Source: Limisphaerales bacterium
GTDB taxonomy: Bacteria > Verrucomicrobiota > Verrucomicrobiia > Limisphaerales > AAA164-E04
NCBI GenBank assembly: GCA_024761205.1
Contig: JAMASS010000017.1
Span: forward strand, 1 to 64,000
Direction: 5' to 3'
DNA length: 64,000 nt
Shown here: piece by piece, positions 38,586 through 50,138 of the stretch
Numbering within the stretch: the first letter of the stretch is position 1
Layout: each line of letters begins with the position of its first letter
Notes under the pieces: model-generated
Told to the model about the DNA's origin: nothing
The model's input: the letters and a program-made list of their open reading frames with translations, nothing else
Database searches by the model: none
Position numbers and translations under genes: made by a program

Positions 38586-39197
38586 CTACTGCTCTGGCGT
38601 CTCGAACAGCTCCGCCTGAGTCCAAGGAGTATTTCGGGTCACCACTTCAGCTCGAATGGCTGCCACTTGCTCTGCGGTGACAGCACTAGCATGGTTTCCC
38701 CATTCGGATTGCCCTCGAATATAAGTAACAATACATGCAATTTCCTCGTCGCTTAGCTCCCGCCAAGATAACATTTGTGCTGGTGGATTCCAGTCCTGAC
38801 CACTCACCACGATTGGCCCCATCAGCCCATTCAAAACCACACGGATGATGCGGTTGGGGCCTTCAGCAGTCACCCAATCAGAGCCTGCCAACGGTGGAAA
38901 CTGCCCCGGCCTACCGGCCCCATTATTTTGGTGACAGGGCGAACAATAAGCCGCGTAAGCCATCCGACCCTTTTCAAAACGCAGATCCAAATTCCCCTTC
39001 GGCTGAATCGCCTTCACTACATCGTAGGATGCGAACGGCTCATAGACATTGGCATCGAAACCGCCAGCATTGCTATCGAGATATAAGGTCGAAAGATAAA
39101 AGAGGACCACAAACACCACGAAAAAGACTGCGGGCACCGGCGCTCGAGAAGCCGTCGGTTCAAATTCCGGTAAATCTTGGTTAGAAGAATCCGTCAT
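38586..39197 (-). CDS. membrane-anchored monoheme cytochrome c (last gene of the respiratory cluster)
   Basis: A 203-residue protein with one N-terminal membrane helix (about residues 21-42) and a periplasmic class I cytochrome c domain. The single heme motif is CSPCH (residues 85-89), followed by NNGAGRPGQFPPLAGSDWV. A methionine in PAQMLSW is the likely sixth ligand. It resembles the cytochrome domains attached to cbb3 or caa3 oxidases. It follows the CcoO-like gene after 8 nt and closes the operon headed by the alternative complex III genes. I infer that it carries electrons from that complex onward. Confidence 0.85.
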   Translation of the reverse strand: MTDSSNQDLPEFEPTASRAPVPAVFFVVFVVLFYLSTLYLDSNAGGFDANVYEPFASYDVVKAIQPKGNLDLRFEKGRMAYAAYCSPCHQNNGAGRPGQFPPLAGSDWVTAEGPNRIIRVVLNGLMGPIVVSGQDWNPPAQMLSWRELSDEEIACIVTYIRGQSEWGNHASAVTAEQVAAIRAEVVTRNTPWTQAELFETPEQ

Positions 39198-39205
39198 TTC
39201 AAAAA

Positions 39206-40099
39206 CTATTGAGATTCGGCCACCTTACGCTCGCTGTTTTGAACCTCCATTGCCTCCGCTGACTCAAGGACTAACCCAGGTGCTTCAAAGATGGGCTCAT
39301 CCAACCGAAGGCTCATCAGATAGGCGACCAGATCCTTAGCAGCCGCTCTCGGCATGACCTGCCTTCCCTGGTTATCCGTCACCAATTGCCCCTCATAACG
39401 CAATGCCCCAGGATCCCCTTCCCCACGAACTTCTCGCTTCTCAAAAAGATAAGCGTAACTTGGCATCACCGAATCTTCGACTACCTTGCGTGGCTGGAAA
39501 AGATGAACGAGATGCCAATTCACGTCTGATCGACGATTGCCAATATTCGACAGGTCAGGACCGATCCGCTGCGATCCGAGCATCACGGGCTGATCCAGCA
39601 AATAGTCCCTTCCAACCGTCCGTCGCACGCCCCACCCACGCGCAATATCAGCCCCGACGGGATTGAACACCAGCATGGCATCTGCTCCTGCGTCGCTCAG
39701 ACGGCGGACAAACCGCTCCGCCACGCGCAAAGTAAGTCCGGAATTAACCTCGAACGGTGTCGCAGGCAATTCCTGCCCCGCTGAATACTGGCTCATCATC
39801 GAAGGCAGCAACCGGGGCACCTGCAGCGCATTGGTTCCAAAATCGACAACCTCTACCGAGAAATTATATCCCTCCTGCCGCACTTGCTGAGTATGGCAAC
39901 TGGCACAGCCATTCTGCCGATAAACATCACGACCTCGCTCGGCTGCACCACTCCGAGGAACAGGGAAGGTTCGATTCGTTACCTCGTCCAATTCGGGAAG
40001 TTGGCTACCGAACTGAACCTGTGGGCTATGAACAAAACCAAACCACGATGAAATCATCGCGAGTAAAACACCAAAAAACAATAGGATTCCGTTGTTCAT
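39206..40099 (-). CDS. CcoO-like monoheme cytochrome c subunit
   Basis: A 297-residue protein related to FixO/CcoO, the monoheme subunit of cbb3 oxidases. It has an N-terminal membrane helix (residues 4-24), the characteristic heme motif region YRQNGCASCHTQQVR (heme at residues 65-69) and the axial methionine in VMPSYAYLF (Met212). GSQRIGPDLSNIG is also a CcoO motif. Residues 80-170 contain extra sequence relative to CcoO. The heme site is complete, in contrast to the subunit I homologue encoded just upstream. A stretch of about 130 nt separates the two genes. Confidence 0.86.
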   Translation of the reverse strand: MNNGILLFFGVLLAMISSWFGFVHSPQVQFGSQLPELDEVTNRTFPVPRSGAAERGRDVYRQNGCASCHTQQVRQEGYNFSVEVVDFGTNALQVPRLLPSMMSQYSAGQELPATPFEVNSGLTLRVAERFVRRLSDAGADAMLVFNPVGADIARGWGVRRTVGRDYLLDQPVMLGSQRIGPDLSNIGNRRSDVNWHLVHLFQPRKVVEDSVMPSYAYLFEKREVRGEGDPGALRYEGQLVTDNQGRQVMPRAAAKDLVAYLMSLRLDEPIFEAPGLVLESAEAMEVQNSERKVAESQ

Positions 40100-40230: not shown

Positions 40231-41682
40231 TCATCCTCGGCGGCCGTGAGACAACTCAATGCCCTCTTCACCACAGCAAAGTCCCTGACAACTAATGCGT
40301 CCCACATTCACCAGGAACAGCAGACTTCCACCGGCCAAAAGCAACGAGCCCACGGTCTCCATTCGAATAAAATTCAATGCCACCTTCGTGACGACAGCAA
40401 ACGGAATGGAAGCATCGTTCATGGTCTGTCCCTGAATCAAACCTCCCAATCCAAAGATACCGATCGTCAATCCCAACCCGACCACGGTGACCCAAAAATG
40501 CAAGTTCACCAAACGGTCATTCGGCCATTCCGTACCGAGAATTCGGGGCAACAAATAATAGGCGATCCCAAAGAGCCCCATTGCAATGAATCCCCCCAAA
40601 ACCAACTGGTTGAATCCAGACAATACCAGCGTGAACTGCGTCAACGCCGCCACACTGCTATGAGCATTGATCGCTCCTAAAACTCCAACCAAAAGAAACG
40701 AAACTAAACTCACCAAAACAAATCGAAACTCAGGTTCCAGCAAACGATTCACCTGATCACCGACTGTAAGATAAAGATTCAAACCAATCAGCACAGTGGC
40801 AAAACAAACAAAGAAGGTCATCGTCGCACTCAAAGCAGAAATCCATGAGGGAACAGTCGTCCCGGATAGAACACCAGCGCCGTTGCCAAAGAAAAGGAGC
40901 AACCAAAACGCGAACACCGCCATGTGATGGCTATGAAGCGACCGACGAAGCAGCTTGGGAATCAGATAAAAAATCACCGACAGTCCCACACCTCCGAGCA
41001 CCAACGTTTTCAATCCGGTCGCATACCAGCCGGCAACGGCCACCTGGGCCACACCCCGCACCGGGTAAAAGTGAAGCAACAGACTCGCCGTACTGAAAAT
41101 CCACGGAAACCAAAGCAGCGCCACGAATAGAAACCATTGCGAAACGTATAGTTCTCGCACCTGTCGTCGCTGAAACGTCACCAATGCCAGACCACCAATG
41201 ATGGCATAGGCCACAAATAGGATTGGGCTCGCATATTTGGGAATTTCAAAAAGCTCATATGCTGTCCCCTCTCCGGCCAAGATACCGACAACACCGACCA
41301 GCACGCCTACGTTCCAGAATACCGCTCCTAGCAAGACATAACCCGGTAGCACGAGCACATTTCGTCCCATCCGCACCAACAGCCAGAGTGCCACAGCAAA
41401 GGCGGACTGCAGGGCGAAGCCGTAAATAAAGATCACATTCGCGGCCGCTTGAATCCGGCCAAAGGTCAACCACGGACAGTGGGCCAAAAGGTCCGGCGCG
41501 TGAAACCGGACGGAATTCAACAAGGCAAACAATGAACTCAGAAACAGCCATCCAGCCGCCTCCCCGAACATGAACGTGACCGGTACCCGACAGGAACGAT
41601 CTAATTCCTGCACCGGAATCTCGGCCTCCCAACCCGGGTTCATCGCCCCGGATTCATTCTCAATACCGTTAGGTTCACTCAT
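40231..41682 (-). CDS. CcoN-like heme-copper oxidase subunit I homologue lacking all metal-ligand histidines
   Basis: A 483-residue protein with about twelve membrane helices, clearly related to cbb3 oxidase subunit I (FGRIQ..., VIFYLIPKLLRRSLHSHHMA, IAYYLLPRILGTEWP, NLHFWVTVVGLGL). By hand alignment with CcoN, every metal ligand is replaced. GRLRPLHTNA becomes GRIQAAAN (residues 75-82, low-spin heme His lost). WYGHNAV becomes WYATGLK (219-225, CuB His lost). AGPHHLHY becomes GNGAGVLSG (266-274, both CuB His lost). GHVHAGALG becomes SGFNQLVLG (355-363, both heme b His lost). If correct, the protein cannot reduce oxygen and would be a structural or ion-conducting subunit. The frame is intact and it sits between act genes and cytochromes. 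The C-terminal 30 residues may be altered by a frameshift (see 40100-40232). Confidence 0.85.
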   Translation of the reverse strand: MSEPNGIENESGAMNPGWEAEIPVQELDRSCRVPVTFMFGEAAGWLFLSSLFALLNSVRFHAPDLLAHCPWLTFGRIQAAANVIFIYGFALQSAFAVALWLLVRMGRNVLVLPGYVLLGAVFWNVGVLVGVVGILAGEGTAYELFEIPKYASPILFVAYAIIGGLALVTFQRRQVRELYVSQWFLFVALLWFPWIFSTASLLLHFYPVRGVAQVAVAGWYATGLKTLVLGGVGLSVIFYLIPKLLRRSLHSHHMAVFAFWLLLFFGNGAGVLSGTTVPSWISALSATMTFFVCFATVLIGLNLYLTVGDQVNRLLEPEFRFVLVSLVSFLLVGVLGAINAHSSVAALTQFTLVLSGFNQLVLGGFIAMGLFGIAYYLLPRILGTEWPNDRLVNLHFWVTVVGLGLTIGIFGLGGLIQGQTMNDASIPFAVVTKVALNFIRMETVGSLLLAGGSLLFLVNVGRISCQGLCCGEEGIELSHGRRG

Positions 41683-41700: not shown

Positions 41701-42102
41701 TTACTCAAATTCGCTTGGCACTTCTGGCGCCGTCGGAGGTACCGCAGTGGCGAGATCGACGCGTTCAGCCAACATCTGCAACGCCTCTTCTGGCTGTTCC
41801 CATTCACGAATCATTATCTCCATGGCTCGAGCCACTGGGATCTGATAAATGTGCTCATCGGCGTTCACGATGGCGTAACTCGTGAGTGCGGACTCTCCGG
41901 CGGACCGCACTTCCGCCAGATTCTTGGCTCGCAGGCTGGCTCGGGCAGCGCCGACTTCCGGCGGTCTGGCCTCATCGCGCGTCAACCACAACACAACAGC
42001 CATGACAAAGAACAGTCCAACGACAAACAGAAAATAGGGGAGCACACCACCTTGACAACTGCCGTGATTCTTCACCCACTTCATGCTGTCACCAAATTTC
42101 AT
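41701..42102 (-). CDS. small membrane-anchored protein of the act cluster
   Basis: A 133-residue protein with one membrane helix (about residues 21-41) and a hydrophilic C-terminal domain. TSYAIVNADEHIYQIPVARA followed by MEIMI resembles a motif (SYG.VD...G...IPI.RAMEL) I recall from small proteins encoded between alternative complex III and oxidase genes in several phyla. It lies 18 nt downstream of actF and 18 nt upstream of the CcoN-like gene, so it is certainly in the operon. I infer an accessory subunit. The C-terminus is rich in Pro and Glu. Confidence 0.65.
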   Translation of the reverse strand: MKFGDSMKWVKNHGSCQGGVLPYFLFVVGLFFVMAVVLWLTRDEARPPEVGAARASLRAKNLAEVRSAGESALTSYAIVNADEHIYQIPVARAMEIMIREWEQPEEALQMLAERVDLATAVPPTAPEVPSEFE

Positions 42103-42120: not shown

Positions 42121-43362
42121 TTAGTCCTTGCCTGATTGACTCGACAATGCCGAAAGCGGCTCCACATAGACGCCCACTGTTTCAGCAACTCGTGGATCAC
42201 GCTGAGGAAACGGAGGATGTCCCTTCAGTTTCCAAACAAAGTATCGCGCAAAAGCCCCGGCCATCAACGCCATGCTGCCCAGACTCAAAACGATACTCGC
42301 AAACGAAATACCTTCGCCCGCAGCGTTGTAAACGGGCTTCACATTGAACGACATATCGGCGTAGTGCATCAACCAGGCCCAAAGACACACCGGCACCATT
42401 ACTGGCAAGCACAACTTAGCGTCGATGCGTAGCAGGAAAAGAAAAGGGACAAAGAAATGCCCAAACACGATCAGCATTCCCACGCTCCACCAAACACCGC
42501 TCTCACGTTTCACATACCAGAACGTTTCTTCTGGAATCGCGGCATTCCAAATCAAGAAATACTGTGAAAAGTGGATGTAAGCATAGAACACCGTGAAGGC
42601 GAAGAAAAGCGTACCGATATCCTTGAAGGTGCTTTTCTGAATGATCGGTGCCAGATGTCCCGTCTCCTTAAGCACCAAGGCGATGACATAAGTGGTCGCC
42701 AAGGTCACCCAGACACTCCCAGCAAAATAGTAAACACCATACATGGTTGAGAACCACTGGTGCTCAAGAGACTTCATCCAATAGAAAGCCGCAAGAGTCA
42801 AGGTGACGGCGAAAATGAAGATGCCGATGGCAGCATAACGACGCATCGACACGGTGCATGAAGCCGCACCCGATCGATCCTGTTCTAAAGACTGATTCCG
42901 TAACCCATTGCTCAACCACCACCAGACGGCGAAGAGAATGACCGCCATGAAATAAAACGAAACTCGGTTATACATGAACGACTTCACCTCAAGTGAATGG
43001 CTATACTCGGTGGAACTCATCCACGGATAGATCGAGCCGGGAAACAAGGCAATCGGGATGAACAACACCACCAAAACCGGAACTGAGCAGGCGATGTGTT
43101 CTAGGAATCGACGGAGCGGAACCAACCAATACGAATCAAACAAATGATGCACCAACACCAAGAACAACGACCCGAGCACCAAGCTTAAGAAGAACATGTA
43201 AGCCGTAAGATAGGAGTAAGCAAGAGTCTTGTGCCAAGAAGGAACAAGAATGCCCAAGAGCGCGAAGAACACACCGCCAGCTATCAACCCGTTAGGCAAT
43301 TTTGCCCACTTCGACAGATCGAGTCGGCTCTCGTCTTTGGATCCCGTCGGCTTACTCATCAT
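42121..43362 (-). CDS. actF: alternative complex III membrane subunit ActF
   Basis: Quinone-binding membrane subunit of alternative complex III, related to ActC/NrfD. The 413-residue product has about ten hydrophobic helices, including GGVFFALLGILVPSWHKTLA, SYLTAYMFFLSLVLGSLFLV and FAFTVFYAYIHFSQYFLIWN. HFSQY followed by IWNAAIPEETFWY is a family hallmark. The start is the ATG at 43362, which overlaps the actE stop (TGATG). An adjacent ATG at 43359 would also do. No cofactor motif is expected or seen. Confidence 0.9.
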   Translation of the reverse strand: MMSKPTGSKDESRLDLSKWAKLPNGLIAGGVFFALLGILVPSWHKTLAYSYLTAYMFFLSLVLGSLFLVLVHHLFDSYWLVPLRRFLEHIACSVPVLVVLFIPIALFPGSIYPWMSSTEYSHSLEVKSFMYNRVSFYFMAVILFAVWWWLSNGLRNQSLEQDRSGAASCTVSMRRYAAIGIFIFAVTLTLAAFYWMKSLEHQWFSTMYGVYYFAGSVWVTLATTYVIALVLKETGHLAPIIQKSTFKDIGTLFFAFTVFYAYIHFSQYFLIWNAAIPEETFWYVKRESGVWWSVGMLIVFGHFFVPFLFLLRIDAKLCLPVMVPVCLWAWLMHYADMSFNVKPVYNAAGEGISFASIVLSLGSMALMAGAFARYFVWKLKGHPPFPQRDPRVAETVGVYVEPLSALSSQSGKD

Positions 43363-43979
43363 CAATTCTGCTGCAAGGCGGCACGTTCGAACTCAGGAAT
43401 ATCGTCCAACACGGCTAAACGTGAGCGTTGGAGCGCTCTCAAATAGGCCACAACAGCCCACCGGTCGGGAATGTCAATATTCGCTCCATAGGGTCCCATC
43501 AGATTCTTGCCGTGGGTAATGGTGTTGAAGATTTCACCAGCTGGCATCTTGACTAGGCGCGGATCATGAAAATTGGCAATGGCCACCATCCCGTACTTCG
43601 CCGTGACTCCTTTCCCATCGCCGGTGACTCCGTGGCAAGGGGCGCAATGGATATTGTATCGCTGTTGCCCCCGAGCTAGTAGCGTCTTATTGAGAGCCAC
43701 CGGAATCGTGCTGACAAAATTCGTCGTGCCACTGATACGACCGGTGTTCACCGGCACATCTTGATACGGCGCGCCACGAGCAACGGTTCCCGCCACGTAG
43801 GGCTGCGATGACCGCCCATTTTCAAAGAAACCATTGCCAGACTGAGGACGCAATTTGAGCTGCCGGTCCATGTCCGGAAAGACTTCCAAAGGAGGCTTGG
43901 GCGAATGCGAGCCGCGAAAGCCCGCGATGCTCAAAACGGCAACAATGATTAAGACGTAGATGGCAAGAAAATATCGCAT
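43362..43979 (-). CDS. actE: alternative complex III monoheme cytochrome ActE
   Basis: A 205-residue membrane-anchored or lipid-anchored monoheme cytochrome c. The N-terminal hydrophobic segment is residues 3-19. The heme motif is CAPCHG in RYNIHCAPCHGVTGDGKGVT, and the axial Met is likely in NLMGPYGANI. The N-terminal MDRQLKLRPQSG and GTVARGAP are typical of ActE. It accepts electrons within the complex for transfer to soluble cytochrome. It overlaps actF by one base and follows actD by 4 nt. Confidence 0.9.
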   Translation of the reverse strand: MRYFLAIYVLIIVAVLSIAGFRGSHSPKPPLEVFPDMDRQLKLRPQSGNGFFENGRSSQPYVAGTVARGAPYQDVPVNTGRISGTTNFVSTIPVALNKTLLARGQQRYNIHCAPCHGVTGDGKGVTAKYGMVAIANFHDPRLVKMPAGEIFNTITHGKNLMGPYGANIDIPDRWAVVAYLRALQRSRLAVLDDIPEFERAALQQN

Positions 43980-43983
43980 CGCT

Positions 43984-44523
43984 CTAATCCTCCACGACCT
44001 CCAAATGACTGCTTCCGGCCTCCTTCAGCAGCGAAGGCGTTTCCTCTTCGGAATACTTCGGATCCGCGCATTCGATGATAACATAAAACTTATCGTGAGT
44101 TACCTTGATGAATCGCCGATTTTTCAAAAGCGGATGATGCAGGCGCGGTAACCGATTCAAGAACAACATCCCAAAGAGCGAACCGAAGGCGGACAAGAGA
44201 ATGGTCAACTCATAGCTCACCGGAAACGCGAAAAACGGACTGTAAAGCGGTTTCCCGCCAACCACGATGCCGTAGTTAAAAGAGTTCATGAACCAGACCA
44301 TCAGATTGCCGCCCAAAAATCCGGCTGCCCCACCACAAAAAGCAAACCAACCGACTTTCGAGTTTTTCAGCCCCATCGCCTCGTCCATTCCGTGAACCGG
44401 AAATGGCGTGTGCACATCCCATTGTGTGTAGCCCGCGTTCCGGATTTTCTCGGCGGCTTCCATAACCTCCCCCGGGGTGTTGAACTCGGCTAGAACTCCG
44501 TATCGTCGTCCCACTGCGCTCAT
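43984..44523 (-). CDS. actD: alternative complex III subunit ActD (DUF3341)
   Basis: A 179-residue membrane protein of the DUF3341 family. The N-terminal soluble part is YGVLAEFNTPGEVMEAAEKI, followed by YTQWDVHTPFPVHGMDEAMG. Two transmembrane hairpin helices come next (GWFAFCGGAAGFLGGNLMVW and YELTILLSAFGSLFGMLFLN). RLHHPLL near the C-terminus is conserved in the family. Its start codon overlaps the stop of actC. It binds no cofactor and acts as a structural subunit. Confidence 0.92.
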   Translation of the reverse strand: MSAVGRRYGVLAEFNTPGEVMEAAEKIRNAGYTQWDVHTPFPVHGMDEAMGLKNSKVGWFAFCGGAAGFLGGNLMVWFMNSFNYGIVVGGKPLYSPFFAFPVSYELTILLSAFGSLFGMLFLNRLPRLHHPLLKNRRFIKVTHDKFYVIIECADPKYSEEETPSLLKEAGSSHLEVVED

Positions 44524-45947
44524 TAGTGTCTACCTCCCTTCACACCACCAAGCGGATGATGGGGGTCCGCTTGTGGAGTCACTCCCTTGACTTCGGAAAT
44601 CGCAATCAAAGGTAAGAACCGAACGAACAAGAGGAATAGGGTCATGAAGAACCCGAAGGTTCCAACATAGGTCAACACATCGACATAAGTCGGCGAGTAA
44701 TAACCCCAATTGGAGGGCAAGTAGTCTCGATGGAGCGACGTGACAACGATCACGAACCGTTCGAACCACATTCCAATGTTCACGAAAACTGAAAGGATAA
44801 AGACGTAAACCATGTTGGTCCGGATCTTCTTGAACCAGAAAAACTGCGGACTCAACACATTACAACTGATCATGATCCAATAGGCCCACCAGTAGGGACC
44901 AAAGGCCCGATTCTGAAACGCGTAAGCTTCATAAGGATTGCCTCCATACCAGGCGATGAAGACCTCCATACCGTAGGCATAACCTACGATCGAACCGGTC
45001 GCCAAGATGACCTTACACATTAACTCAACATGCCGAACCGTGATCACTTCCTCCAATTTGAAGAGCGACCGCAGCGGCAACACCAACGTGATCACCATGC
45101 CGAATCCAGAGAAAATCGCCCCGGCAACGAAGTAAGGCGGGAAGATCGTCGTATGCCATCCAGGCAGCTGTGACACCGCAAAATCAAAGGAAACGATACT
45201 ATGCACCGATAAGACCAGCGGCGTCGAAAGACCGGCGAGAATGAGGTAAGCCTTCTCGTAGTTACTCCAATGCCGGTTCGATCCCGTCCAACCTAAGGAG
45301 AACAGTCCGTAAAAGAACTTGCGAGTAACGGTCTTAGCGCGATCTCGGATCGTTGCCAGATCAGGAATCAAACCCATGTACCAAAACAGCAAAGACACCG
45401 TAAAGTAGGTGGACACCGCAAACACATCCCACACAAGGGGTGAGCGGAATTGTGGCCAAATCGGTCCGTTGGAGTTAGGCAACGGAAACAGCCACCAAGC
45501 GAACCAAATACGTCCCACGTGAATGGCAGGGAATATACCGGCACACATCACTGCAAAAATCGTCATCGCCTCGGCAGCACGATTAATCGATGTTCTCCAC
45601 TTTTGCCTCAAAAGGAATAGGATGGCGGAGATCAATGTTCCCGCGTGGCCGATACCGATCCACCAGACGAAGTTGACAATGGCCCAGCCCCAAGCGACTG
45701 GATGATTCAATCCCCACACACCGACACCGGTCGAGATGAGGTAGCCGATCATGATAAAGCAGAGCAACGCCGTGGGCACACTGATCAAAAACGACACCCA
45801 CCACCAAGTCGGTGCCTTATTCTCGACGATCCCAGAAATCTTGTCTGACAACCACCCCAGAGAGCGACTGTTCAAGACTAACGGCTCACGTTCCAGTTCG
45901 CGCGGCGACGGAGCAACAGTGAAGCTATTATTTTTTCCGCCTGCCAT
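44523..45947 (-). CDS. actC: alternative complex III quinol-oxidising subunit ActC (NrfD-like)
   Basis: NrfD-family integral membrane subunit with the proposed quinol site. The 474-residue product has about ten helices and motifs [60 protein letters not shown] and [19 protein letters not shown]. The His in GHAGT and the Asp/Glu residues in the helices are the usual quinol-site candidates. It is one base upstream of actB's end and overlaps actD, so translation is coupled. Length is normal. Confidence 0.94.
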
Positions 45948-48900
45948 CTAGTGATATCCTCCAGTTTCTCCGTTTGCGGAATCGGCCTCAACACCATGAT
46001 CGTCATGCCCATCGCCATGTGCTGCTCCGTGATGATCACTAAATGGATCACCCATGCTCACTGAATATTCCTCCGTGCTTAACGGCATCTTGTGGTAATC
46101 CGGCATCGCAGGGTTCGGGTTGCGAACCTTGGCCAAATAAGTCGTTCTCGGTCGGGTGTCTAAGAATCCCAAAACCGCGTAATTTCTCGGACTCTCCTTG
46201 AGCTTGGAGACCCGGCTTTCAGGATCCAATGTGTTCCCGAAGACGATCGCGTCCGCAGGACAGGCTTGCTCACAAGCAGTCTGAATGGTCCCATCGGAAA
46301 CCGCCACCTTGTCTGAATCTCGCGCGGCTACTTTCTGCTGAATCTTCGCGTTCTCGATTCGTTGAACACAGAAGGTGCATTTTTCCATCACACCCCGCAT
46401 ACGAACCGTCACCTCGGGATTCTTCGCCATGGCAACCAAATCCAAATCATCCTTGGGTCGCTCAGCCAAGGGACCATCGTATAAGGCCTCCAGTGGACGC
46501 TTGTTGTAATCGAAGAAATTAAAACGCCGCACCTTCCAAGCGCAGTTGTTGGAGCAGTATCGGGTGCCCACACAACGGTTGTAGGCCATCACATTCAACC
46601 CTTCATGATCATGGACCGTCGCATTCACGGGACAGACATTTTCACACGGCGCATACTCACAATGCTGGCACAGCATCGGCTGAGTCACGACCTGCGGATC
46701 ATCGATCCACTCCTGATACTGCAGGTTTTCGTCGGCTTCAAGACTGCTCAAGCCGGACTTCGCTGCCACGCCGCCGCTGAAATAGCGATCGATGCGCATC
46801 CAATGCATCTCGCGGCTCTTGGCGACTTGCACCTTACCAACGATCGGAATGTTATTTTCACTCTGGCAGGCCACCACGCAGGCCGAACAACCGACGCAAC
46901 GATTGAGGTCGATCGTCATGCCCCACTGATGAATGTCACTCTTGAGCGACTCCCGGACGTCGTAAGGGTGCTTATACATGGGAAGCGGTTTGCCATCTTT
47001 GTCACGGGGGATGTGCTGGCCATGCGCTTCCAAACCCATGTTACGCGCGAAATCCGGCTTCTGCTTCTCGCGGAATTGTTCAATATTGGCTTCGCGAACA
47101 ATCGCCCGCCCTTCCATCGACCAATGATCCTGAGTCGTCGCCAGCTTGTGTTGGCGCCCCGTAAACGATACTGCTGCTCCGGGCGCGATATACGCTCCAG
47201 CGCTGGTCCGGATCGGATTCACATCGAACCCAACCGCCTGTCCGTTGAATCCACCGATACGCCCCGACCTGCTCCGACCATAGCCCAGTGCCAACCCAAC
47301 CGAGTTGTTGGCCATACCGGGCATGACCCAAGCCGGTCCTTCAACCGAGCGACCATTAAGTTCAATCCGAACGATATCGCCGTTCGACACCCCCAAGGCA
47401 CCGGCAGTCTCTCGACTCAGCAAGGCGACATTATCCCACGTCAACTTGGTCATAGGGTCCGGAAACTCCTGCATCCAGCCATTGTTGTTGAACTGACCGT
47501 CGTCCATGCTGGCGTCTCGATAGAACACCGCCTCGATAGAACTCCGACTCGGTGGCGGAGCCTTCTCGGCATTCAGAATGGCCGGTCCCACAGCCGACCA
47601 ATTGAATCTCGCCGCGCCGACAGAGACGCTCGCGCTTGCGCTATCCGCAACAAACCCATCATGCAAAAATTTCTTCCACTGCTCTTCATTCGCGCCTTTA
47701 ACTTCCGCATCAAAAGTCGCCCGAACCTGAGCATGCCCGCTGGGATCCTCCAATTTGAGAATCCTGGAGATCAATTCAATGTCGCTGAGTCCGCCAAATA
47801 AAGGCGCAATCAACGGCTGCACAGCTACGCGCGTGCCGTCACTAGTCGCAGCGTCCCCCCATCTCTCCAAAAAGTGCGTTTCCGGAAAGTGCCACGTGGC
47901 ACCCTGAGAGGATTCGTCGACATAATAACCAAGACGGATCACCTCTCGCACCTTCTTTTGTGCTTCGGCCCAGCCTAATTCCGCAGGCGCGTCGTAAGCG
48001 GGATTGCCGCCCAGCAAGACCAGCGTTTCCACTGTTCCTGCATCCAACGCGGCTTTCAGATTCGCAATGCTATCAGTGGACGCCTCACTCCCCGGCGCAA
48101 ATTCCACTGTGTGTCCAATGTTGTCCAATACCAAATTGAGCGCATGCGCCAAGAAATGGACAGCCACGGGTTGGCGATAACCGGCGACGACCAACGAATG
48201 GCCCTGATGTGCCGCCAAGTCCTTAACGGCCTCCAACACCCATTCGGATGAGACGTTCGCCGTTTCCGCGATCTGGCGGAGCGAGTTCTTCAGCGCGCTA
48301 ATTTGTGAGTTCCCGCTTGCCGACTCATTCTGCTCCAAGGCCTCGGCCAACAAAGCGGCCGCCACAGCAAAAACACCACTGGTTGGCACCCGTAACCGAT
48401 GATCCGCGTTGGAACCAGTCAACGTCATCAAACCTTCAACGACATACAGGCGACTCATCTCGTCGCTTGGCTTCTCAATTGAGCGCCCATCGGCAAATCC
48501 CTTGATATTGACGTAAGCATCCTCCTCATCGCCCAGAAAATCGCAATCCAACGAAACAATTCGAGATGCCCTATCAAAGTGATAGCGCGGTGATAGCGCG
48601 CGCCCAAAAGCGATCGTAGCCGCCTCCGCGGAACGACCAAAGCTGACGGGCTCGTACTCGCACCACTTGGCCTGAGGTAATCGTTCCGTCAGCAAGGCCT
48701 GCAGCCGCCTCCGAGTCGGTGAGCTGGATTCCCGGCTCAAAATGCTTAAGCCCTGTCCTCGATTCCGTGCAAACTTATCGGCGACGGTCTTGAGATGACT
48801 GAACGCCGCTTCTTCCGAACTATTCTCGCCGTCGTTCAAAAATTGTCGGGACCGGTCCGGATCATAAAGATTCAAGATGGACGCCTGAGCGAACGAGTCG

Positions 48901-49304
48901 GTACCACCACCGGACAACGGATGCTCCTGGTTGCCCTCAAGCTTCACCGGCCGGCCGTCCGCCGATTTCGCCAGTAACGGAATGGCGTTTCGCCGTGTCG
49001 GCATCGCGGTGGCGAAATATTTCACCACCCCATGTACATATCCCTCGGGCATCTTGGAGAAGGGGACGATGATTTCCTCCGGACGACGGCAACCGCTCAG
49101 CCCAAAACCAGCCAGGAGGAAAGAGGCAGACATCAACTTAACAAAATCGCGCCGGGTAACCTCCCTGTTAAGTTCGCTCGCTCCCTCAGGAAATTCTTGA
49201 TCCACCCACTGCTTGAATTCCGGCGTATCAGCCAACTCATCCAAACTGCGCCAATACCGCGGCCCAGTTTGGGGCGTCTCTTGAATGGGAAAAACTGTAT
49301 TCAT
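45948..49304 (-). CDS. actB: alternative complex III iron-sulfur subunit ActB
   Basis: A 1118-residue fusion. The leader contains VTRRDFVKLMSASFLLAGFG, a Tat signal ending in a possible lipobox (LSGC). The N-terminal two thirds resemble a molybdopterin oxidoreductase without cofactor ligands, as in other ActB proteins. The C-terminal third is a four-cluster ferredoxin domain, with CVGCSACVVACQSEN, CQHCEYAPCENVCP, CVGTRYCSNNCAW and CTFCVQRIENAK plus CEQACPADAI. It passes electrons between the quinol site and the cytochromes. I chose ATG 49304 because it gives the ATGA overlap with actA and the expected N-terminus (MNTVFPIQE). An upstream ATG at 49313 is possible. Confidence 0.94.
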   Translation of the reverse strand: MNTVFPIQETPQTGPRYWRSLDELADTPEFKQWVDQEFPEGASELNREVTRRDFVKLMSASFLLAGFGLSGCRRPEEIIVPFSKMPEGYVHGVVKYFATAMPTRRNAIPLLAKSADGRPVKLEGNQEHPLSGGGTDSFAQASILNLYDPDRSRQFLNDGENSSEEAAFSHLKTVADKFARNRGQGLSILSRESSSPTRRRLQALLTERLPQAKWCEYEPVSFGRSAEAATIAFGRALSPRYHFDRASRIVSLDCDFLGDEEDAYVNIKGFADGRSIEKPSDEMSRLYVVEGLMTLTGSNADHRLRVPTSGVFAVAAALLAEALEQNESASGNSQISALKNSLRQIAETANVSSEWVLEAVKDLAAHQGHSLVVAGYRQPVAVHFLAHALNLVLDNIGHTVEFAPGSEASTDSIANLKAALDAGTVETLVLLGGNPAYDAPAELGWAEAQKKVREVIRLGYYVDESSQGATWHFPETHFLERWGDAATSDGTRVAVQPLIAPLFGGLSDIELISRILKLEDPSGHAQVRATFDAEVKGANEEQWKKFLHDGFVADSASASVSVGAARFNWSAVGPAILNAEKAPPPSRSSIEAVFYRDASMDDGQFNNNGWMQEFPDPMTKLTWDNVALLSRETAGALGVSNGDIVRIELNGRSVEGPAWVMPGMANNSVGLALGYGRSRSGRIGGFNGQAVGFDVNPIRTSAGAYIAPGAAVSFTGRQHKLATTQDHWSMEGRAIVREANIEQFREKQKPDFARNMGLEAHGQHIPRDKDGKPLPMYKHPYDVRESLKSDIHQWGMTIDLNRCVGCSACVVACQSENNIPIVGKVQVAKSREMHWMRIDRYFSGGVAAKSGLSSLEADENLQYQEWIDDPQVVTQPMLCQHCEYAPCENVCPVNATVHDHEGLNVMAYNRCVGTRYCSNNCAWKVRRFNFFDYNKRPLEALYDGPLAERPKDDLDLVAMAKNPEVTVRMRGVMEKCTFCVQRIENAKIQQKVAARDSDKVAVSDGTIQTACEQACPADAIVFGNTLDPESRVSKLKESPRNYAVLGFLDTRPRTTYLAKVRNPNPAMPDYHKMPLSTEEYSVSMGDPFSDHHGAAHGDGHDDHGVEADSANGETGGYH

Positions 49305-49969
49305 CGATGACATGCCGAACAGTTCACTAAAGATTCCACTCTCCAATCATGAACAAACTGCTCACCCTTCTCACGCTGCAAAACCGCTGCTTCCTTGGGG
49401 TCGTCACTCCATGTCCAATCTAGGTCGGTGATTTTGTCCAAGGGCCGGACCTTACCGGCCGGATCCCGATGGCACTCCAGACAAAACGCCATACCAAACG
49501 GCTTTGCGTGATAAACCTTGTCCATTTTGTTCACTGGCCCGTGGCATTCCACGCAACTGACACCACGATTCACATGGACGGAATGGTTGAAATAAACGTA
49601 GTCCGGCAACTTGTGTATCTGCACCCACGGAATGGGTTCGCCGGTTTCATAGCTTTCCCGAACCAGCGCCAATTTGGGATCATCCTTCAGCACCTGATTG
49701 TGGCAGTTCATGCAAACCGAGGATGCCGGAACATTGGAATACCAAGACTTCTCAACCGCATTGTGACAGTAGCGGCAGTCGAGCCCGAGTTGATCTGCGT
49801 GAATCGCGTGCGAAAAAGCGACTGGCTGCACCGGCTGATACCCCACGCGAGTATATTTCGGAGTGGCATAATACGCCACCCCAACAACCATGGCGCCGCC
49901 GATGAGAAGCCCGCCCAAGATCACTTGGCCGGGCAGCTTATTCGTCCACTTAGGAAAAATGTCGGACAT
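49301..49969 (-). CDS. actA: alternative complex III pentaheme cytochrome ActA
   Basis: A 222-residue membrane-anchored cytochrome with five CxxCH motifs: CRYCH (65-69), CMNCH (86-90), CVECH (139-143), CLECH (163-167) and CSACH (217-221). The N-terminal helix is residues 15-34. The order and spacing are those of ActA. It is the first protein gene of the operon. Upstream in the same direction lies tRNA-Cys. I start at ATG 49969; a TTG two codons earlier is not needed. Confidence 0.94.
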   Translation of the reverse strand: MSDIFPKWTNKLPGQVILGGLLIGGAMVVGVAYYATPKYTRVGYQPVQPVAFSHAIHADQLGLDCRYCHNAVEKSWYSNVPASSVCMNCHNQVLKDDPKLALVRESYETGEPIPWVQIHKLPDYVYFNHSVHVNRGVSCVECHGPVNKMDKVYHAKPFGMAFCLECHRDPAGKVRPLDKITDLDWTWSDDPKEAAVLQREKGEQFVHDWRVESLVNCSACHR

Positions 49970-50138
49970 TCTCAAATATCTTTAAACTCACCACAAATCC
50001 CAACCCGAACGCCAACCGTCCGGCGATTCCAACGTCAAAAGAGTCGCCTTGATTAACGAAAAAGATTCCTGCTCTTCATCCACCAACGAAAAACACAGGA
50101 ATCAAGAAAATCCACCCCTCATCCCATGGAAGGGTAAT

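Follow-up and report, generated by a model that had tools for sequence, protein, structure and literature searches.

A CcoN-fold subunit without heme or copper ligands encoded in the alternative complex III operon of Verrucomicrobiota

The alternative complex III (ACIII) operon of a Limisphaerales bacterium contains a gene, here called ccoN*, whose product has the predicted fold of the oxidase subunit CcoN and has lost all of the heme and copper ligands. Metal ligands are what normally defines subunit I of the heme-copper oxidases, yet an entire class, which appears to have evolved recurrently, has kept the subunit I fold and the operon without them. From the alignments, the loss of cofactor ligands in a conserved, selected subunit of this fold is almost certain, and the protein should not reduce oxygen. 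We consider it probable that ccoN* is a cofactor-free subunit that would dock CcoO and a cytochrome c on ACIII and feed an aa3 oxidase. The observations behind this proposal are the loss of the ligands, the catalytic Tyr, and the channel residues; the fold, which is predicted to be retained; the synteny; the heme motifs of the partners; the purifying selection seen in relatives; the recurrence of the loss; and the A-type oxidase in the genome.

RESULTS

Gene cluster

The window analyzed is a stretch of 64,000 nucleotides (positions 1 to 64,000 of contig JAMASS010000017.1, assembly GCA_024761205.1). The preliminary description of this DNA had reported an intact reading frame for a subunit I homolog whose neighbors keep their heme motifs. 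Both observations held: ccoN* is open from ATG to stop (483 codons), and the heme motifs number five in ActA and one each in ActE, CcoO, and the terminal cytochrome. ccoN* is the eighth gene of a cluster of ten, actABCDEF-(133 aa)-ccoN*-ccoO-cytc, with intergenic gaps of at most 131 bases (Table 1). The act genes stand in order and encode a five-heme ActA, a one-heme ActE, an NrfD-type ActC, and ActD, as in an alternative complex III operon. From the cbb3 partner set a CcoO-like gene is there, whereas the second cytochrome has only one CXXCH instead of the two hemes of CcoP.

Table 1 Genes of the ACIII-ccoN* cluster
Feature	Position	Strand	Basis
ActA, pentaheme cytochrome c	49301..49975	-	Pfam/NCBIfam
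ActB, molybdopterin-enzyme-like domain and Fe-S domain	45948..49346	-	Pfam/NCBIfam
ActC (NrfD family)	44523..45947	-	PF03916
ActD	43984..44523	-	PF11821, 2e-61
ActE, monoheme cytochrome c	43362..43979	-	
ActF (no family match)	42121..43365	-	Position and synteny only
133-aa protein, one N-terminal hydrophobic segment, no Pfam family	41701..42102	-	Synteny
ccoN*, predicted CcoN fold, all heme and CuB ligands lost, 483 aa, 12 TM helices	40231..41682	-	Alignments, model
CcoO-like (FixO) membrane-anchored monoheme cytochrome c, CXXCH kept (CASCH)	39206..40099	-	
Monoheme cytochrome c with a membrane anchor, weakly similar to CcoP, CXXCH kept	38586..39197	-	

Ligand sites and fold

The ccoN* protein matched Pfam COX1 (3e-34) and the NCBIfam ccoN profile TIGR00780 (101.6 bits). 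The latter score is far under the 583-bit equivalog cut-off, and that of a ligand-bearing homolog (L015, 225 bits) is under it as well. Ligand positions were read from a phmmer alignment to Pseudomonas stutzeri CcoN (3mk7, E 1e-21) and from a family alignment that takes in 71 relatives with intact ligands; the two agreed. The preliminary description had stated that all six ligand histidines for heme b, heme b3, and CuB are replaced, and none is present: four are substituted (H60 by A81, H207 by T222, H345 by F357, and H347 by Q359, 3mk7 residues first), and the CuB ligands H257 and H258 are deleted (GPHHL became GV--L). The active-site Tyr251, a Tyr in 71 of 71 ligand-bearing members, is G266. 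Six further residues that are invariant or nearly so among those relatives have also changed (R57 to Q78, W203 to G218, T215 to G230, Y223 to F238, S240 to A255, and H337 to Q349); T215, Y223, S240, and H337 are positions that we take to lie near the usual proton path of the C family.

The histidines that ccoN* does contain were considered as ligands and rejected. HSHH (250–253) aligns to 3mk7 235–238, none of them a ligand position; His341, which the preliminary description had also named for checking, aligns to about 329; and the His of NLHFW aligns to no ligand position. A frame or sequencing error was rejected as the cause, because the same state occurs in independent genomes, and chance was ruled out by the recurrence of gene order and ligand loss together in dozens of genomes.

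An AlphaFold (AF2) model built from 30 relatives (pLDDT 90.3, pTM 0.90) predicted that the 12-helix CcoN fold is retained, in keeping with the fold pattern noted earlier. Its closest solved structures were CcoN chains (8smr_E, Z 49.3, rmsd 1.8 Å over 443 residues; 3mk7, Z 49.1), followed, beyond the CcoN range of Z 47–49, by NorB (Z 40–42) and then A-type subunits (Z about 35). NorB identity was rejected on these lower Z scores, the absence of the ligand histidines, and sequence matches that are to CcoN. ccoN* thus resembles CcoN of cbb3 oxidases in its predicted fold, its CcoN profile match, and its ccoO partner gene, but differs in having neither ligands nor active-site Tyr, in its low identity (20–22%), in being encoded with ACIII, and in having a monoheme partner.

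Distribution and diversity

Of 289 genomes taken as a sample of the phylum, 90 contained homologs. The ACIII-linked family is present in about 65 of these 90; the others have nothing but CcoNO fusions or members of a distant group that bears the ligands. The 80 loci compared were drawn from named genomes, nearly all Verrucomicrobiota (one is labeled Omnitrophota and one only "bacterium"). Ligand-bearing and ligand-less loci alike usually show the ten-gene order, most gaps in it being explained by contig ends, and full-length frames are open in nearly all ligand-less loci examined. Proteins of about 460 aa with all six histidines and no act genes (L144–L148) were excluded from the family as a separate C-type branch.

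About half of the homologs in the loci set keep all six histidines (HHHHHH). The replacements in the others are diverse: AT--FQ in the window, and AS--LW, QQRHQQ, AHSRRW, HSQKFI, SESHFV, and others elsewhere. Among 72 classified genomes of 14 families, 21 are ligand-bearing and 51 have lost most or all ligands; such loss occurs in 10 of the 14 families, two of which (f2 and f5) hold both states. Two loci, L022 (L151) and L023 (L150), keep only the His pair of low-spin heme b (HNQRYH) and have lost the heme b3 and CuB ligands, plausibly an intermediate that would conduct electrons without catalysis. The earlier proposal of a catalytically dead subunit I fixed in this operon was right as to a noncatalytic homolog in an act operon, but the family is not uniformly dead. 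In the clade of the window's gene and its relatives (L044, L047, L056, L062, and others), which is large, Limisphaerales-like, and ligand-less, exactly the two CuB histidines are lost through a deletion of two residues.

Selection and partner heme motifs

Ratios of dN/dS were determined for close pairs by the Nei-Gojobori method. Six ligand-less pairs gave 0.129 (L058/L064), 0.095 (L047/L050), 0.158 (L053/L055), 0.102 (L126/L131), 0.132 (L153/L103), and 0.186 (L127/L129), all within the range of the ligand-bearing pairs (0.045–0.192). The dead forms are under purifying selection (0.10–0.19), as seen on relatives of the window gene; dS is saturated between that gene and its nearest relative (L044, 72% identity), and selection was read from the relatives instead. 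This result answers the earlier concern that a ratio near 1 would mark a dying gene. One further pair (L046/L077, 0.63) was set aside as an apparent frame or assembly artifact, because other genes also gave odd values and L046 has overlapping reading frames.

Heme motifs of the partners are kept equally in both classes. In ligand-less operons CXXCH was present in 51 of 51 ActA, 61 of 61 ActE, 60 of 62 CcoO, and 58 of 58 terminal cytochrome genes. Because these motifs and purifying selection on ccoN* are both maintained, we infer that the module still handles electrons, which the former oxidase subunit itself cannot do.

Recurrence of ligand loss

A CcoN tree built with the ligand segments removed gave at least 3 losses, with the ligand-less members on long branches and mostly in one clade. 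The ActB+ActC tree gave a parsimony count of 9, of which starred branches force 6; when nothing but losses was counted, the number was 15, or 8 after weak branches were collapsed. In the CcoO tree, ligand-less operons of Opitutae lie beside ligand-bearing operons of Opitutae, whereas the ligand-less branches of the CcoN tree group Opitutae with Limisphaerales, against both the Act and CcoO trees. Because of this conflict, long-branch attraction in the CcoN tree is likely, and together with independent losses it best explains the disagreement; the trees are also compatible with transfer of ccoN within the phylum. Judged from these trees, ligand loss is recurrent, with an estimated 8–15 events on the act-gene tree and at least 3 on the CcoN tree.

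Other oxidases

Ligand-bearing ccoN is the sole heme-copper oxidase gene in two small genomes (G011 and G156), in which no bd oxidase was found either; with no other oxidase, the ligand-bearing form is probably their working terminal oxidase. In general, the ligand-bearing homologs look like a genuine ACIII-linked C-type oxidase. Every ligand-less genome of the phylum sample carries at least one further heme-copper oxidase, although for the window's own family the incomplete genome G009 lists only its CoxA at the search threshold. The contrast in genomes with no other oxidase (0 of 51 ligand-less, 2 of 21 ligand-bearing) is only suggestive.

The operon runs on into an A-type oxidase at L124–L131, L134–L137, L139, L140, and L141; at L124–L131, L134–L137, L139, and L141, coxA/coxC/coxB come immediately after it. 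Two ligand-bearing operons, L116 and L142, do the same, and adjacency to aa3 may thus predate ligand loss. In the window's genome, a complete aa3 operon (sco, coxB, coxC, coxA, ctaB, ctaA) lies on another contig, and no bd oxidase was found. CoxB of this genome contains a COX2 domain but lacks a heme c motif (CXXCH), which makes the monoheme CcoO and cytochrome c natural candidates for a link between ACIII and CuA.

The "cbb3" oxidase of verrucomicrobial methanotrophs

Verrucomicrobial methanotrophs are stated to have a cbb3 oxidase, which has been linked to high O2 affinity (PMC6688271; PMC10205796). The genomes of family f4 carry pmoA-family genes and were assigned to methanotrophs on the basis of pmoA and class. 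Five pmoA-bearing genomes (G052, G064, G082, G162, and G276; loci L194–L197, L139, and L141) carry a ligand-less form of ACIII-linked ccoN (ADAHQT or SESHFV). The other COX1 proteins that they encode belong to the A and B types or resemble NorB, and no ligand-bearing CcoN was found in them. The published "cbb3" of these organisms thus appears to be the ligand-less form. A sixth pmoA-bearing genome (G018) is without ACIII-linked ccoN, which fits the exception given in the review, Ca. Methylacidithermus.

DISCUSSION

We propose that ccoN* descended from the catalytic subunit of an oxidase of the C type (cbb3-like) encoded with ACIII, lost all heme and copper ligands, and would survive as a cofactor-free membrane subunit, its CcoN fold kept so as to secure two monoheme cytochromes, the CcoO-like and the terminal one, at ACIII. 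From menaquinol, electrons would pass through ACIII (the Fe-S domain of ActB and the hemes of ActA and ActE) to the CcoO and cytochrome c hemes and on to CuA of an aa3 oxidase. In many relatives the genes for such an oxidase lie immediately downstream; in the window's genome they are on a different contig. Supercomplexes of ACIII with aa3 or caa3 oxidases are established in other bacteria, and in Flavobacterium johnsoniae and Rhodothermus marinus extra cytochrome domains link ACIII to the oxidase (PMC5928083, PMC8552683). These systems are like the one proposed here in that ACIII and an oxygen reductase are encoded together or purify together and a direct heme c route exists; they differ in that an additional ActA cytochrome domain or a cytochrome domain of caa3 subunit II is used, and no CcoN/CcoO module has been described.

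CcoO and the cytochrome could instead serve a soluble acceptor; the aa3 genes of the window's genome are not on the operon's contig. A competing view makes CcoN*, CcoO, and the cytochrome a branch-point module from ACIII to periplasmic acceptors other than aa3; ActE of F. johnsoniae, dispensable for transfer to aa3, may serve another acceptor in this way (PMC8552683). We regard this view as unlikely, given how often the operon directly adjoins coxA/coxC/coxB in other genomes, the lack of adjacency in the window's own genome notwithstanding. As to the membrane subunit, the preliminary description had offered either a scaffold or a proton-conducting subunit, and the scaffold fits better. ACIII does employ cofactor-free membrane subunits of the NrfD type in ion transport or quinone binding (PMC5928083), and the helical bundle of ccoN* is kept. 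However, T215, Y223, S240, Y251, and H337, polar residues of the usual C-family proton route that every ligand-bearing sibling keeps, have been lost or vary, and the ligand-less clades share no new set of polar residues in their stead, which leaves a proton-conducting or quinone-binding role improbable.

Binding of heme or copper by residues other than His, or by ligands at shifted positions, might be read into the scattered histidines of a few ligand-less members and the low-spin heme b pair of L022 and L023. The replacements differ from clade to clade, however, and no set of His, Met, Cys, Tyr, or Lys is conserved at the metal sites of the ligand-less class; we consider such binding highly improbable. 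A relic in decay, the gene of a dead oxidase kept only through its place in an essential operon, would agree with the longer branches of ccoN*, which indicate faster evolution than in ligand-bearing siblings, and with free drift at the active site. Purifying selection largely refutes this explanation already; the frames have stayed open, the fold is predicted to be intact, and the ligands were apparently lost repeatedly and independently while the gene was not, so that we give the relic almost no weight beside the docking subunit.

The docking subunit would have a parallel in ActB and QrcB, which are molybdenum-enzyme-like subunits without the molybdenum cofactor. Like ccoN*, they are formerly catalytic subunits kept as noncatalytic parts of quinone-linked oxidoreductases; unlike it, they have an unrelated fold and are not heme-copper oxidases. 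Another close counterpart is the C-type oxidase that is linked to ACIII in Opitutae and other Verrucomicrobiota and bears the ligands. It shares the ten-gene operon, the family, and about 34–41% identity, but keeps the six histidines and the catalytic residues and is the only recognized oxidase of two genomes. An act cluster with a C-type oxidase was already known from Opitutaceae and verrucomicrobial methanotrophs, according to PMC8498564, which cites Refojo 2010. To that extent the assembly is not new; its ligand-less state, which the preliminary description had taken to be undescribed, does appear to be, as no description of ligand loss in CcoN was found in the open-access literature, the scope of our search.

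Calls of "ccoN" or "cbb3" have served to argue for microaerobic respiration and a high affinity for O2 (PMC6688271, PMC8498564, PMC10205796). In Verrucomicrobiota, such profile-based calls can denote a protein that should not reduce oxygen, as in 51 of the 72 classified genomes. On a broader proposal, for which we see the chances as even, most Verrucomicrobiota with this operon would respire through a supercomplex of ACIII with a heme-free pseudo-oxidase at its core, the metals having been stripped many times after aa3 took over, and the "cbb3" of the methanotrophs would hence not be a high-affinity oxidase. The natural series from six ligands through low-spin heme only to none may reveal what CcoN does besides catalysis.

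Three features of the family outside the ligand sites are recorded here. The sites that both classes conserve are for the most part structural Trp, Pro, and Gly, plus the N-terminal Asp28 (about 41599–41601 in the window), which is nearly invariant, lies in an EIDxSxR-like stretch outside the part aligned to 3mk7, and is a candidate contact with ACIII. The 133-aa gene between actF and ccoN is kept in most operons, ligand-bearing and ligand-less, and its product is possibly an extra ACIII/CcoN subunit. In family f3 (L126–L132), the place that the 133-aa gene occupies in other families, between actF and ccoN*, is taken by an extra cytochrome c gene.
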